Under the pieces are notes generated by a model. The model did no database searches. It was given only the letters and a program-made list of their open reading frames with translations, and was not told the origin of the DNA. The position numbers and the translations under genes are program-made. Positions 12,913 to 19,439 of a stretch of DNA of 64,000 nucleotides are shown here, one piece after another; within the stretch, counting starts at the first letter, position 1; every line of letters starts with the position of its first letter. Location of the stretch: the NCBI RefSeq assembly GCF_023256255.1, contig NZ_JAGDXD010000043.1:62001-126000 (forward strand), given 5' to 3'. The DNA is from Caldivirga sp. GTDB taxonomy: Archaea > Thermoproteota > Thermoprotei > Thermoproteales > Thermocladiaceae.

Positions 12913-15450
12913 ATGAGGGGGTTGTTAGCAGTATTAATGTTCGCAGTGGTAATGTCGTTGATCACTATAGCTAACCCGCAGCTTAACCCAGCTACCAGTA
13001 GTTTAACTAATTCAACCCATGCAAGTAACTTCACTAAACCCATACTTAACATCACTCTTAGCGTTAATTTAGTTAGCTTAAATTATGAGAACTGGGTTAA
13101 ATATCCAGTTAACAATGTAGTATCAACCCCCCTAAACTCATTCACACTAGTAGTTAATGCATCAATAATCAACTCCACCGCGCCCATTAATGAAAGTGCA
13201 GTATTAAGTGTTAGAATTAGTAACGTATACTCATACTCAACAACGCTTAACCTCACTGCTGGCTCCTATAAGCTGGTTAATGTATCAGTCTACTCATTAC
13301 CATACGGTAATTACTCAATTAACGTTACCTTAAGCATCATCAATTTCACCACCAGTAAGTCTTACAGTCTAATAATGTATAAGCCAACAATAATTAGTGC
13401 TTATGTGACGCAATGTGGCTTAATCACATCACCAGTTAATAACTCTAAGGTAATCATACCTTACTCATCACCAGTATTAAACATTTTACTTTACTCAGCT
13501 GAGCCCGTTAAATTAAGGCTAGTCAGCAGTGTGGGTGCTCTTTCCTCATCCTATGATGTTACTATTAATGGGGAATACGTGTTCCAGGAACCATTAATGT
13601 TCATAAATGGTACAGTTTCAGCGCAGCTAACGTTTAATGGGCAATCCTACTCCACGTACTCATTTCAGGTTTATTCAGTGAAGCCATGGTACTCCATTAA
13701 CCTTACCTATGGCTCAGTTTCCTTAAGGGTGTTTAATGGTTCAAGTATTCCTGTTATAACTGGGCATAGCGTAAGCTTCTATGGTTCATATTTAAGCAAC
13801 TTAACTATGGGGATTATGATTAATGGCCAAGTCACCGGCAGTAGTTTCTTCATAGTTAATAGTGGATCTTATAGTGCTCAAGCATTATTCACTTACGGTA
13901 GTTGTGTGGTTGGGTTAATTAAATTCAACATAACTGCGTATCAGCCAGTAGCGTTAATTACCTCACCTAATTCAACAGTGCCGCTTGGTGTTGATTCTAG
14001 GGTAATCATTAATGTTAATGTGCCGGCCCCAATTACTGAGGAGTATGTTTACGTTTCACCATTATCACCTCAGCTTCCAGTAAGCATTACTGGTAGTCCA
14101 ATTGCCCTAAAGGGTAATGGTGAATTCACGGTGGGGTTGCTTGCTCTTCAGCCGGGTCCAATGCCTCTAAACGTATCCTTAACGATGACTGATTATGGGG
14201 GTTACTCGTACTACTTCAGTACTATAATCCTACTTAATATACTTAAACCATCCATGAGTATTACGCCTGGGTTACTTTATGTAACGTATGGGGAATTAGC
14301 CAGCATGTTAATTAACTTAACCGCCGATGGCTACAGTATAGTTAATCAAACCCTTCAATACCAGGTTACTTTAAATGGGATCAATGTTGCATTGGGTTCA
14401 GTGAGCACAAATTCAAGTGGCTACGCGTTATTGTCATTTAAGCCTAATGAGACTGGGATCTACATAGTTTACGTAACCTACTCCCCATCCCAATCCTTCT
14501 CAATAACAAGCCAGGCTAAGATTATTGTTAAACCAGCTAAGGTCAATATAAGCTACCTAGTTAACTCAACCATAGTTTATGGAGATTCATTAAAGGTGAC
14601 GGTTAACCTAAGCCCAGGCATAACGGCTTCAGTTTACCTATACTTAAATAAGACATTCATCGGCTACATTAATGTAATTAACGGTACGGGCTACACCTAC
14701 GTGAAACCAAATAGAGCAGGTTACTTCAACTTAACCCTCTATTACCCGGGTTCCCAGAATTACCTACCATCAGCAGTTGAGTCATCCCTAATGGTACTGA
14801 GGGCGCCCTGTTTAATCAATGTGAACATTAATGGATCATTAATTGTTGGGGATAAGCTAATAATAAGTGGTAATGTAACCGCACCAATTAGTCAAGTGCC
14901 AATTTACGTGAATAAATCATTAATCATGGCTTACGTAACTAATGGTAAATTTCAAGAATCATACGTACCACCTTATCCTGGGGTATACAATATTACAGTG
15001 TACTGGCCTGGTAATATCAATTACCTATCATGTGGCTTTAATGAACTGGTAAAGGTCATTAAGGCGAATCCAAGAGTATTAATTAGGGTGCTTAATAATG
15101 GTACAATAGCCTCCGGCAGCTCAATAGTAATACTTGTATTAATTAAAGCTAATAATAGATTACCAACAGACGCGAATGCATCAATCCTTGTTAATTCAAG
15201 CGGAAAGATAAGTAGTATGAGTACCTTAGTTAGTAATGGAACAGTGTTAAGGATAGCTACCGATAAGGCTGGGCCATGGATTATTTACATCAAGTACCTT
15301 GGTAATGAATGGCTTAACGAGGCTCACGTAGGACCTATTGCAGTCTACGTTGTTGCAGGACTCTTTGGAATCCCATGGTACATTTTTACAATATACGCGT
15401 TGGCGATTATAATGGGTTTACTAATATCATTACTAATGCGCCACAGTTAA
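12913..15450 (+). CDS. Ig-repeat surface protein with C-terminal membrane anchor
   Basis: 845 aa. An N-terminal signal peptide (RGLLAVLMFAVVMSLITIA) is followed by an extracellular part rich in Asn-x-Ser/Thr sequons, suggesting heavy N-glycosylation. From about residue 450 there are three or more Ig-like repeats of about 85 residues with the recurrent end YYPGSQNYLPS, YWPGNINYLS and a diverged KYLGNEWL. A single membrane helix closes the protein (FGIPWYIFTIYALAIIMG), leaving a short basic tail. It is likely an S-layer-associated or adhesion protein. The next gene starts 6 nt downstream, so they form an operon. Confidence 0.8.
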   Translation: MRGLLAVLMFAVVMSLITIANPQLNPATSSLTNSTHASNFTKPILNITLSVNLVSLNYENWVKYPVNNVVSTPLNSFTLVVNASIINSTAPINESAVLSVRISNVYSYSTTLNLTAGSYKLVNVSVYSLPYGNYSINVTLSIINFTTSKSYSLIMYKPTIISAYVTQCGLITSPVNNSKVIIPYSSPVLNILLYSAEPVKLRLVSSVGALSSSYDVTINGEYVFQEPLMFINGTVSAQLTFNGQSYSTYSFQVYSVKPWYSINLTYGSVSLRVFNGSSIPVITGHSVSFYGSYLSNLTMGIMINGQVTGSSFFIVNSGSYSAQALFTYGSCVVGLIKFNITAYQPVALITSPNSTVPLGVDSRVIINVNVPAPITEEYVYVSPLSPQLPVSITGSPIALKGNGEFTVGLLALQPGPMPLNVSLTMTDYGGYSYYFSTIILLNILKPSMSITPGLLYVTYGELASMLINLTADGYSIVNQTLQYQVTLNGINVALGSVSTNSSGYALLSFKPNETGIYIVYVTYSPSQSFSITSQAKIIVKPAKVNISYLVNSTIVYGDSLKVTVNLSPGITASVYLYLNKTFIGYINVINGTGYTYVKPNRAGYFNLTLYYPGSQNYLPSAVESSLMVLRAPCLINVNINGSLIVGDKLIISGNVTAPISQVPIYVNKSLIMAYVTNGKFQESYVPPYPGVYNITVYWPGNINYLSCGFNELVKVIKANPRVLIRVLNNGTIASGSSIVILVLIKANNRLPTDANASILVNSSGKISSMSTLVSNGTVLRIATDKAGPWIIYIKYLGNEWLNEAHVGPIAVYVVAGLFGIPWYIFTIYALAIIMGLLISLLMRHS

Positions 15451-15456
15451 TTGTAG

Positions 15457-16182
15457 GTGATATTGCCTCTGCAGCGTTCCGTTCAAGTAGAATGTTTAAT
15501 AAATAGGTTACTTACCCTAATTGCTGTGGATTATAAATCAATTCCGGATAACGTGTGTCCAATATCGTACTTTGACACTACTCACCTGGTCTTACGCATA
15601 CTCTACCATAGGGTAAACCTATGCTTATCACTAGGCCTAGACTGCATGGGATTACCCATAATTTCAACATCAGTATTAACCATGAGGAATTGCAGTAGGG
15701 ATTCTGTATATAAATTATTTAGAAGATTAATTAGGGTGAGGAATAAGTTGGGAAGGAACATTAAGCTACTTGAACTAGGCGATATCAAAGTTTACTTAAG
15801 GATTTCTAAAAATAAGGGTAGTATTCATGTGTACAATAGCTACATGATGAATAACCGTGACTGCAGTAAATTAGATAACTGCATCACAATAAATAACGTG
15901 ACCCTACTCTACATGTACCTATTAATACGGCTTTCCGGAAGGAACGTAATTCTCCTTAATGTTCCTGATGCCCTAATATGGATTGCTAGGGTTTTCGGTA
16001 TAGAGACTGCCGTATCAATCCTAGACTTAATTCATAATTACATGGAGAAGGGTGAGCTCTCAAGTGAGGTTAATGTACTATTAAGTATGCTTAGTTTACT
16101 TGGGCTAAGGATTAGTAAAGAACAGTTTGAGAACGCATTATTACCGGCAAGGAGAATTCTACACGTGTTAAGAAGCACATAG
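15457..16182 (+). CDS. Unknown protein co-transcribed with the surface protein
   Basis: 241 aa from a GTG, 6 nt after the stop of the Ig-repeat gene. I do not recognise a family. It has no signal peptide and no clear membrane span. The N-terminal 60 residues carry four Cys, and the middle is basic (LFRRLIRVRNKLGRNIK). Hydrophobic helices dominate the C-terminal half. The tight spacing suggests a role linked to the surface protein, for example in its assembly, on the cytoplasmic side; this is inference. Confidence 0.65.
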   Translation: MILPLQRSVQVECLINRLLTLIAVDYKSIPDNVCPISYFDTTHLVLRILYHRVNLCLSLGLDCMGLPIISTSVLTMRNCSRDSVYKLFRRLIRVRNKLGRNIKLLELGDIKVYLRISKNKGSIHVYNSYMMNNRDCSKLDNCITINNVTLLYMYLLIRLSGRNVILLNVPDALIWIARVFGIETAVSILDLIHNYMEKGELSSEVNVLLSMLSLLGLRISKEQFENALLPARRILHVLRST

Positions 16183-16230: not shown

Positions 16231-17643
16231 TTACTCATTCCGCTTCATTAACCTGTCAATGAACCAGGGTACAATTGAATTCTTAATAGCCGTAATCACC
16301 ATGCTTAACTTGCCGCTTAACAGTTCTTTTGCAAGGAATCCTGCCCTGAGGTAGAAGACCCTGTAGGCGTATTGAAGCATTTTATCAGCCTGCTGCCTAG
16401 TGAACCTATAACCCCTCATGACTGCCCTCAATGTCGTGTAATGCTCCCAGTTCCAATCCTCAATAAGGTTCTCGTTAACGGCTTGATAATAAAGTGGAGT
16501 GCCAGGGTATGGTGTTGCTACCGTGAACTGTGCATAAGATGGGTTAAGCTTAGCGGCGAACTTAGCGGTTCTCTTCATGTCATCTATTGTTTCCCATGGG
16601 AAACCTATAACGAATGATGCTACTGCATTAACCTTAAGCTCATGAACCCATTCAAAGACCTTAATGGCCTGCTCAATGGTTATCCTTTTACCAATCCTAT
16701 TTATGGTGTCTTGACTAGCTGATTCGACACCAAAGTAAAGGGCTGTGCAACCGTGGTTTAGTAAGTCGCTCATCATCCTCCTATCAATAGTATCAACCCT
16801 TGAACCACAGGAGAAGTTTATGTCGAGTTTCCTTTCCCTTAACTCCCTTAAAAAGTCGTAAACAAATCTCTTACCTAGGGTGAACTCATCATCAGTGAAG
16901 ACTACAGTATTAGTGTTGTACTTATTAACAGCCTCTTCAATTTCATCCACGACATTCTTCGCAGACCTATACCTAATTAACCTACCCCAGTAGTATGATG
17001 TTGAGCAGAAGGAGCAACCGTATGGGCAACCACGGCTAGCCATGACGTGAATTATCCTAATTGGTTTACCGAATATTGTGTACTTATCCATTGGCAGTAG
17101 GTGACGTGCTGGAAATGGTAACTCATCAAGGTTCCTTATGGGTGGCCTATCCCTTGTCCTAATAACCTCACCACCACTACTGAAAACTATGCCATTAACC
17201 TCCTTGAGAGCATCCTTATTCATTCCCATCTTCTCAATGGTGTTGATGAGGTCCAGTGTAGTGTACTCCCCCTCGCCTCTAACCACTACATCAACCCCAT
17301 TGTTTAACGCCTCCTCATACATGAATGATGCATGTGGTCCACCCATCATTATGGGCAAGTCCTTATCATACTCCTTAATTGCCTTAACAGTATCATAAGC
17401 CTTATATATTGTTGGTGTTAATGCCGTTAAGCCCACTATATCAGGGCTCCATGCCTTAACCTCGTTAATGAAGGTTCCTAGGTCAATACCCTCGGTTGGT
17501 GAGTCAATTATCTTAACCTCATGTCCAGCCCTTTCAAGAACCGCTGCAATCCAAGCCAGTCCAAGTGGTGGCGCCTTAAGCCCAAGGACCTTATATATCT
17601 CCATTTTATCAATACCTGGTGGAACTGCTAATAGAACCCTCAT
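16231..17643 (-). CDS. B12-binding radical-SAM enzyme (class B)
   Basis: 470 aa. Residues 1-130 form a cobalamin-binding Rossmann domain (start MRVLLAVPPG, then PPLGLAWIAAVLERAGHEV, and GGPHASFMY). The radical-SAM core begins near 200 with the cluster motif CPYGCSFC, and the rest of the TIM barrel is intact (FTDDEFTLGKRF, YFGVESASQDTINRIGKR). The C-terminal part is helical and basic. Such enzymes methylate unactivated carbons or, in archaeal GDGT ring synthases (GrsA/GrsB), cyclise membrane lipids. A role in lipid ring formation is plausible for a thermophilic crenarchaeon but is inference. It lies 13 nt after the next gene in one operon. Confidence 0.85.
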   Translation of the reverse strand: MRVLLAVPPGIDKMEIYKVLGLKAPPLGLAWIAAVLERAGHEVKIIDSPTEGIDLGTFINEVKAWSPDIVGLTALTPTIYKAYDTVKAIKEYDKDLPIMMGGPHASFMYEEALNNGVDVVVRGEGEYTTLDLINTIEKMGMNKDALKEVNGIVFSSGGEVIRTRDRPPIRNLDELPFPARHLLPMDKYTIFGKPIRIIHVMASRGCPYGCSFCSTSYYWGRLIRYRSAKNVVDEIEEAVNKYNTNTVVFTDDEFTLGKRFVYDFLRELRERKLDINFSCGSRVDTIDRRMMSDLLNHGCTALYFGVESASQDTINRIGKRITIEQAIKVFEWVHELKVNAVASFVIGFPWETIDDMKRTAKFAAKLNPSYAQFTVATPYPGTPLYYQAVNENLIEDWNWEHYTTLRAVMRGYRFTRQQADKMLQYAYRVFYLRAGFLAKELLSGKLSMVITAIKNSIVPWFIDRLMKRNE

Positions 17644-17656
17644 TAATTAAGTCACC

Positions 17657-19162
17657 TTACTTGAACCCTAACTTGGATACTGTAACCTTAATCTTAGCCC
17701 ACTGTTCAACCTCATCCTTAAGCCTTTTCCACTCCCTGGAATTATATATGCATCCTGGATCTGGAGCTAAAACATCACCGAAGTACCCATACGCCCTAGC
17801 CCTGCAGCCACCGCAAATCATCTTATATGGGCACCGGCCGCAGAAGCCTTTAAGCCTGCTCCTGTCTCTGAAGTTCTCCATGAATGGGTCCATCCAAATA
17901 TCCCAAAATGACCTAGTCCTAAGGTTACCCACTGGGTAGGGTAGGAAGACACATGGTGTGAGGGTTCCCTCAGGTTCAATTGCAGCGTAGATTCTACCAG
18001 CTCCACAGCCACCAATGAATTCGGTTAACTCCCTTGTTATTGGGTCACTGGCAACTACAAAGTGCGTTGGGGCTGTATCACTATTATTGCTTAGCTGATT
18101 AACAACCCTACCATAGTAAGGTGCCGTAGTAACTATCTCCATGTTCCTCCTCTTCATCTCCATGTAAATATGTCTCATGAAACTCTCCCTCTCCTCGGGT
18201 GATAAGTCAATATCCAGGTTCTCACGGCCCCTACCCACTGGGACAAAGTTGAAGAAGACGACCCTCCTCACGCCTATTTCCTGGGCTAGGTCAAGTATCT
18301 TATCAACCTGGTCAATGTTAGTTTTGGTCACTGTAAAGGCTAATGCGGCACTGAAGCCTAACTTAACGGCATTAATGAGCCCCCTAACGGCCTTATCCCA
18401 AGCCCCCTCAACCCCCCTAAACTTATCGTGAACAGCTGGGTCAGCAGCATCGATACTAATCTCCACGTACCTTAACCCAGCCTTCTTAGCCTTCTCAGCG
18501 AACTCCATGTTAGCGAACATGAGTCCATTAGTAGCCACCGCTGAGTAAAAGCCCCTTCTATTCATCTCGTTTAATACAACCCAGAAGTCTGGGTGTATTG
18601 TTGGTTCACCACCAGATAGGGCTATTGCTGGTACGCCAGCTTCATCAAGTTCCTTAACTACCCTAAGCTTCTCCTCTAAGGTTAACTCATTTGGTAGTGG
18701 CTTACCGGCATTCTGATAACAGTGAACGCACTTAAGGTTGCATAGGTTAGTGAAGTTCCAAACTATGAAGAATGGCGCAGGAAGCTTCTGGGGAGTGGTT
18801 ACACCAAATAATGCAATACCCCTAAGTGTAGTAACAATACCCCTCCTAACAGCTGGGTCACTAAGTATCTGCTTAACGTCATCCTCATTAGCATGGAAGT
18901 AACTCATGGTTAACTTAACCATGGCCTTAAAGAACGGTGAAGCCAAATGCGCTACAGTTGGGCAAGGTTCATTACCTGCGTAGGCAGCCATAACCCATTC
19001 AAGTAGCGGCTTCCTCTCACCGTTAAACTCAATCTCCTTCATTAATGCTGATAAGGCATGGCGTATAGCACCCCTATTAAGCATCCTAATCGCAGCTATT
19101 AACGCCCCAGTCCCACTCCTCTCAGAAGCCTTACTAGTAATGTTATCGATGGCTGATGACAT
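17657..19162 (-). CDS. Radical-SAM/SPASM enzyme with N-terminal extension
   Basis: 501 aa. A helical N-terminal extension of about 120 residues precedes the radical-SAM core (CNLKCVHC in FTNLCNLKCVHCYQN near 140-150, LSGGEPTIHPDFW). The C-terminal SPASM region binds auxiliary FeS clusters (GCGAGRIYAAIEPEG, then CGRCPYKMICGGCRARAY). It resembles the NirJ/AhbC and peptide-maturase branch. Substrate unknown: a heme-like precursor, a peptide or a lipid are all possible. It is the first gene of an operon with the B12 radical-SAM enzyme, so the two probably act in one pathway. No RiPP-like precursor ORF is obvious next to it. Confidence 0.85.
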   Translation of the reverse strand: MSSAIDNITSKASERSGTGALIAAIRMLNRGAIRHALSALMKEIEFNGERKPLLEWVMAAYAGNEPCPTVAHLASPFFKAMVKLTMSYFHANEDDVKQILSDPAVRRGIVTTLRGIALFGVTTPQKLPAPFFIVWNFTNLCNLKCVHCYQNAGKPLPNELTLEEKLRVVKELDEAGVPAIALSGGEPTIHPDFWVVLNEMNRRGFYSAVATNGLMFANMEFAEKAKKAGLRYVEISIDAADPAVHDKFRGVEGAWDKAVRGLINAVKLGFSAALAFTVTKTNIDQVDKILDLAQEIGVRRVVFFNFVPVGRGRENLDIDLSPEERESFMRHIYMEMKRRNMEIVTTAPYYGRVVNQLSNNSDTAPTHFVVASDPITRELTEFIGGCGAGRIYAAIEPEGTLTPCVFLPYPVGNLRTRSFWDIWMDPFMENFRDRSRLKGFCGRCPYKMICGGCRARAYGYFGDVLAPDPGCIYNSREWKRLKDEVEQWAKIKVTVSKLGFK

Positions 19163-19253: not shown

Positions 19254-19439
19254 TCATGCGTTCCTCCTAACGTTAACTATAATGAACGTTAGGAATGCAA
19301 TGAGCATCACTATTACCACTAGGTCAATTATTAATGCAGCCTCAACGTGAATATCAAAGGGTAATGCGAAAAGAGCCAGCACTAGAAATATTATAGACAA
19401 CATGTACGCTAGGCGTGCAACAGACGGATCCAATTCCAT
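19254..19439 (-). CDS. Small two-helix membrane protein
   Basis: 61 aa with two hydrophobic helices (LAYMLSIIFLVLALFALPF and ALIIDLVVIVMLIAFLTFII) and a basic C-terminus, so the tail is probably cytoplasmic. I recognise no family. A minus-strand A/T box ACTATATTTA at 19461-19470 lies about 26 nt before the ATG, which supports real expression. It sits upstream of the radical-SAM operon on the same strand and may share its function, which I cannot name. Confidence 0.6.
   Translation of the reverse strand: MELDPSVARLAYMLSIIFLVLALFALPFDIHVEAALIIDLVVIVMLIAFLTFIIVNVRRNA

Follow-up and report, generated by a model that had tools for sequence, protein, structure and literature searches.

The window, a 64,000-nt stretch of a Caldivirga sp. 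contig, carries two radical-SAM genes in tandem on the minus strand. The first encodes a SPASM radical-SAM enzyme of 501 residues (17657–19162; Pfam Radical_SAM and SPASM), very probably a GMGT synthase (Gms). The second, after a gap of 13 nt, encodes a B12-binding radical-SAM enzyme of 470 residues (16231–17643; Pfam Radical_SAM and B12-binding, the latter, PF02310, covering residues 19–130 at 17254–17589), a probable tetraether-lipid methylase that is neither GrsA nor GrsB. Coordinates, strand and spacing are as given in a first-pass annotation of this DNA, and the Pfam domains agree with its naming of the two ORFs. That annotation also drew attention to a small membrane protein just upstream on the same strand: a hydrophobic protein of 61 residues is indeed encoded there (19254–19439, minus strand), 91 nt upstream of the SPASM gene, but its matches are confined to Caldivirga loci, so that it falls outside the conserved unit and was rejected as a partner of the pair. 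Convergent with the B12 gene lies an ORF of 241 residues as listed (15457–16182, plus strand), here termed family X and regarded as a candidate third component. The named records closest to the window come from Caldivirga (95% and 89% identity), followed by Vulcanisaeta, Thermocladium and one Thermoproteus. In draft Vulcanisaeta and Thermocladium assemblies (L026–L030), the pair and its neighbouring genes contain broken reading frames, which are probably sequencing errors.

The domain layout of the SPASM enzyme is that of Gms, the enzyme that cross-links the two chains of tetraether lipids. As published (Li et al. 2024, PMC11186832), Gms has an N-terminal domain made up of six helices, followed by the radical-SAM domain, a bridge that includes a beta-hairpin, and a SPASM domain carrying two auxiliary clusters. 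The CX3CX2C motif of the SPASM enzyme from the window (CNLKCVHC, residues 141–148; 18719–18742, minus strand) begins only at residue 141, compared with residues 11–57 in the related SPASM proteins examined, and the N-terminal extension is therefore real. In an AlphaFold2 model of moderate confidence (mean pLDDT 64, pTM 0.71), residues 1–125 (18788–19162) form a helical domain ahead of the barrel, in which six helices fall within residues 17–119 and are preceded by one that is less confident, as expected of the six-helix domain that precedes the radical-SAM core in Gms. The extension of 120 residues noted in the first reading thus exists but is not unusual, since it corresponds to this Gms domain. 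Seven conserved SPASM cysteines (residues 386, 404, 441, 444, 450, 453 and 471; 17750–18007, minus strand), together with the CX3CX2C motif, fit the two fully ligated auxiliary clusters of Gms, and the first radical-SAM and first auxiliary cysteines are 245 residues apart, compared with 247 in Gms if C370 is the first auxiliary cysteine there.

Among the solved structures, the closest folds to the model include SuiB, to which Li et al. also aligned their Gms model (PMC11186832), and SkfB is a further neighbour. Both are peptide maturases, and with a protein of 61 residues encoded upstream it could be imagined that the pair matures a peptide of which this small protein is the precursor. Such a role is highly improbable, however, given that the supposed precursor was found in Caldivirga loci only, whereas conservation of the pair reaches much further.

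Ignisphaera aggregans harbors a Gms homologue and is a reported GMGT producer (Li et al. 2024, PMC11186832); its protein served here as a stand-in for the assayed euryarchaeal Gms, which was otherwise compared by its published description. The single family member in this organism (G218; 486 residues) is 54% identical to the SPASM protein from the window over 475 residues, inside the thresholds taken for orthology to the homologue of a GMGT-producing species (>30% identity, E<1e-50, >420 residues). In a maximum-likelihood tree, in which some deep forks, including the placement of L179 and L180, are weakly supported, both proteins cluster with the other long family members and apart from AhbC/NirJ-like, TIGR04053, PqqE and mycofactocin-type proteins. 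Of the 398 Thermoproteota genomes sampled, 172 contain the family (E<=1e-75), none of them from Sulfolobaceae, in line with the published absence of Gms from S. acidocaldarius and M. sedula. Both genes of the pair are found in Vulcanisaeta distributa (G050; 79% identity to the window for the SPASM protein and 77% for the B12 protein), a species in which GMGTs with up to six rings are reported (Garcia et al. 2024, PNAS).

By every test applied, the SPASM enzyme is thus very probably a Gms orthologue: the arrangement of its domains, its pair of auxiliary clusters, the spacing of its cysteines and its distribution among anaerobes match those of Gms, and it has an orthologue in the GMGT producer I. 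aggregans. We assign it the GMGT synthase reaction with considerable confidence, as one would from orthology. What sets it apart is that its gene shares an operon with a B12 radical-SAM gene, an arrangement not described by Li et al. (PMC11186832). The suggestion of an undescribed lipid modification consequently survives as far as the lipid is concerned, through the Gms orthology and the GrsA neighbours found in other genomes (see below), but its SPASM half is already described: with Gms known since 2024 (PMC11186832), this enzyme is a further example, accompanied by a conserved B12 partner that is a probable methylase, and the new lead is family X.

The first reading had also allowed for a cofactor as the substrate, and the scores against curated families could be taken to favour a pair that modifies heme or another cofactor in the manner of AhbC/AhbD and NirJ. 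By score, the nearest curated SPASM families are indeed AhbD (247 bits, cut-off 500) and NirJ2 (234 bits, cut-off 500), with TIGR04053 also among them and AhbC at 191 bits (cut-off 650). These values amount to half of the NCBIfam equivalog cut-offs at most, so none of the AhbC, NirJ or AhbD families claims the enzyme. AhbC/NirJ-like proteins form a separate clade, lack the N-terminal domain and have an aspartate where the SPASM family has its sixth SPASM cysteine; the genome of the window already encodes a distinct protein of this type (L001); and in other genomes the pair has GrsA and Tes-like genes in its neighbourhood. Tree, cysteine pattern and genomic context thus all contradict a role in cofactor modification, which we regard as very unlikely. 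Tes, another radical-SAM enzyme in the same lipid pathway, is likewise a separate protein in the genome of the window (L006; NF045702, 627 bits, cut-off 450), and this family is absent from the best 25 families listed for the SPASM enzyme. A search of a plasmid collection returned NirJ, TIGR04053, BchE and other distant relatives only. One plasmid of Rhizobium acidisoli carries a row of a SPASM gene, a B12 gene and a further radical-SAM gene (L198, 6479–10507), in which the B12 protein shares 32% identity with that from the window and the SPASM protein gives no match to its counterpart above the reporting threshold.

The association of the two genes extends well beyond Caldivirga, and here the expectation of a conserved pairing is borne out. 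In 33 Thermoproteota genomes the two are immediate neighbours, 20 times with the SPASM gene leading and 13 times with the B12 gene leading, which is far more than chance would produce. For their co-occurrence over the 398 genomes the odds ratio is 22; because these genomes are related to each other, the p-value is only a guide. The existence of both gene orders indicates that the linkage was established, or re-established, on more than one occasion. The SPASM gene is frequently found without the B12 gene, and a close B12 homologue occurs without the SPASM gene in eight genomes. An overlapping SPASM–B12 pair was also seen in a Sulfolobaceae genome outside the sample (G407, 79% complete; L176, 4602–7519); a close B12 homologue was found in none of the other 30 Sulfolobaceae searched, and this pair may reflect transfer or contamination.

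Genes of tetraether lipid synthesis recur around the pair. GrsA directly adjoins the SPASM gene in two genomes (G104 and G118), is at most 3 kb from it in G279, and is at most 3 kb from the B12 gene in G037, G170, G190 and G266, while in G111 the genes for GrsA, the B12 enzyme and the SPASM enzyme overlap in a row (L141, 6036–10419), such that three lipid-type radical-SAM genes form one apparent operon. In total, GrsA lies beside or within 3 kb of a SPASM or B12 gene in eight genomes, as against about 1.2 by chance on a rough estimate that ignores relatedness. G222 and G247 each have a Tes-like gene (33% identity) at a distance of 3–4 kb from the SPASM gene. This context, which is independent of the comparison with Gms, points to tetraether lipids. 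In the G222 and G247 loci (L179 and L180), three paralogous B12 radical-SAM genes cluster with the SPASM gene and the Tes-like one within about 17 kb.

The B12 enzyme had been placed in the class that includes the archaeal lipid ring synthases, which is true in the broadest sense only. The two Grs proteins of S. acidocaldarius (G151; taken from their map position to be Saci_1585 and Saci_0240) and the two from the genome of the window form a clade of their own (SH-aLRT 100), with the B12 enzyme outside it, and an identity as GrsA or GrsB was accordingly rejected. GrsA and GrsB resemble it as radical-SAM enzymes that act on GDGT and whose genes adjoin the pair in some genomes; however, they are phylogenetically apart, and other genes in the genome of the window encode its own GrsA (L016, which shares 56% identity with the Saci protein) and a protein resembling GrsB (L019). 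With Tes, GrsA and a GrsB-like protein all encoded in this genome, substrates for both the SPASM and the B12 enzyme should exist.

As to what the B12 enzyme does with such a substrate, methylation of a tetraether chain appears fairly probable by analogy: B12 radical-SAM enzymes methylate in most cases, extra-methylated GMGTs and GDGTs are known archaeal lipids, and a GMGT methylase (Gmm) reportedly acts together with Gms (Garcia et al. 2024, PNAS). Gmm is reported to be a partner of Gms on the same lipid, and the B12 gene is genetically tied to Gms, being adjacent to it in the 33 genomes mentioned above, as would be expected of Gmm. Because close B12 homologues occur in eight genomes that do not have the SPASM gene, the substrate need not be a GMGT. 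An AlphaFold model of the enzyme (mean pLDDT 61, pTM 0.49) was too weak for use. Its best curated scores are those for BchE (235 bits), ApyD (200 bits) and HpnJ (187 bits), all above that for the methylase HpnR (142 bits), and neither BchE nor HpnJ is a methylating enzyme. This ranking is what one would look for if the SPASM enzyme were Gms and the B12 enzyme made a further C–C bond, closing another ring or adding a second cross-link while cobalamin held the substrate radical as proposed for OxsB. However, all of these scores are far below their cut-offs and so reflect distant kinship, and a methylase working with Gms has been reported, whereas we know of no report of an enzyme for a second cross-link; further C–C bond formation is therefore considered rather unlikely, and methylation is preferred.

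On balance, we favour an operon that encodes two tetraether-lipid tailoring enzymes, namely Gms and a Gmm-like methylase, the reaction of the former being predicted from orthology and methylation by the latter with less certainty. In the mechanism envisaged, the SPASM enzyme would use a 5'-deoxyadenosyl radical to take a hydrogen from one GDGT chain, and the resulting carbon radical would be held by an auxiliary 4Fe–4S cluster of the same enzyme; a second hydrogen would then be taken from the other chain, and C–C coupling between the chains would yield the cross-linked GMGT. For Gms itself, this mechanism of two hydrogen abstractions has been proposed by analogy with Tes. Working on the same lipids, the B12 enzyme would most likely use methylcobalamin to methylate an unactivated carbon of a chain, giving a methylated GMGT or GDGT in the manner of Gmm. 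GMGTs, which are linked to heat and anoxia, are looked for in sediments. Conservation of Gms and the B12 enzyme as a unit would mark anaerobic archaea that could both make GMGTs and modify them further, and for the step of methylation the B12 enzyme is an immediate candidate.

The convergent ORF downstream of the pair belongs to a family that follows both genes. After extension by a profile, a whole-genome search of all loci found 42 copies of family X in 41 of the 398 genomes, plus one short fragment: 22 directly adjoin the B12 gene, 13 the SPASM gene and seven are unlinked, such that 35 of the 42 are next to one of the two. In genomes that have these two genes apart from each other, family X accompanies either one, and G389 has two copies, one beside each. 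The SPASM gene is present in 40 of the 41 genomes. Members are about 220–260 residues long and share C56, C63, P67, D135, C136, C142 and N168, and the conserved cysteines suggest a metal or Fe–S site. The ORF in the window has no Pfam or NCBIfam match; matches to these collections obtained by single members of the family were rejected, and a match in the PDB to a designed helical repeat was judged to be an artefact of helix composition. To our knowledge, the family has not been described.

Family X is thus a candidate third component of the SPASM/B12 system. A more specific proposal, which we put forward tentatively and at somewhat less than even odds, is that it assists GMGT/GDGT tailoring as an accessory protein so far undescribed, perhaps one that binds a metal or an Fe–S cluster and partners both enzymes, acting alongside the B12 enzyme, whatever step that enzyme performs. 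If it is a real third component, current annotation has wholly missed an archaeal lipid-tailoring gene. Its homologues suggest that the copy in the window starts at a GTG at position 15526. Also on the plus strand, positions 12913–15450 encode a Ser/Thr/Asn-rich protein of 845 residues that has a hydrophobic stretch at its C-terminal end and looks, on inspection by eye, like a surface protein; among the loci compared it was matched in Caldivirga only.
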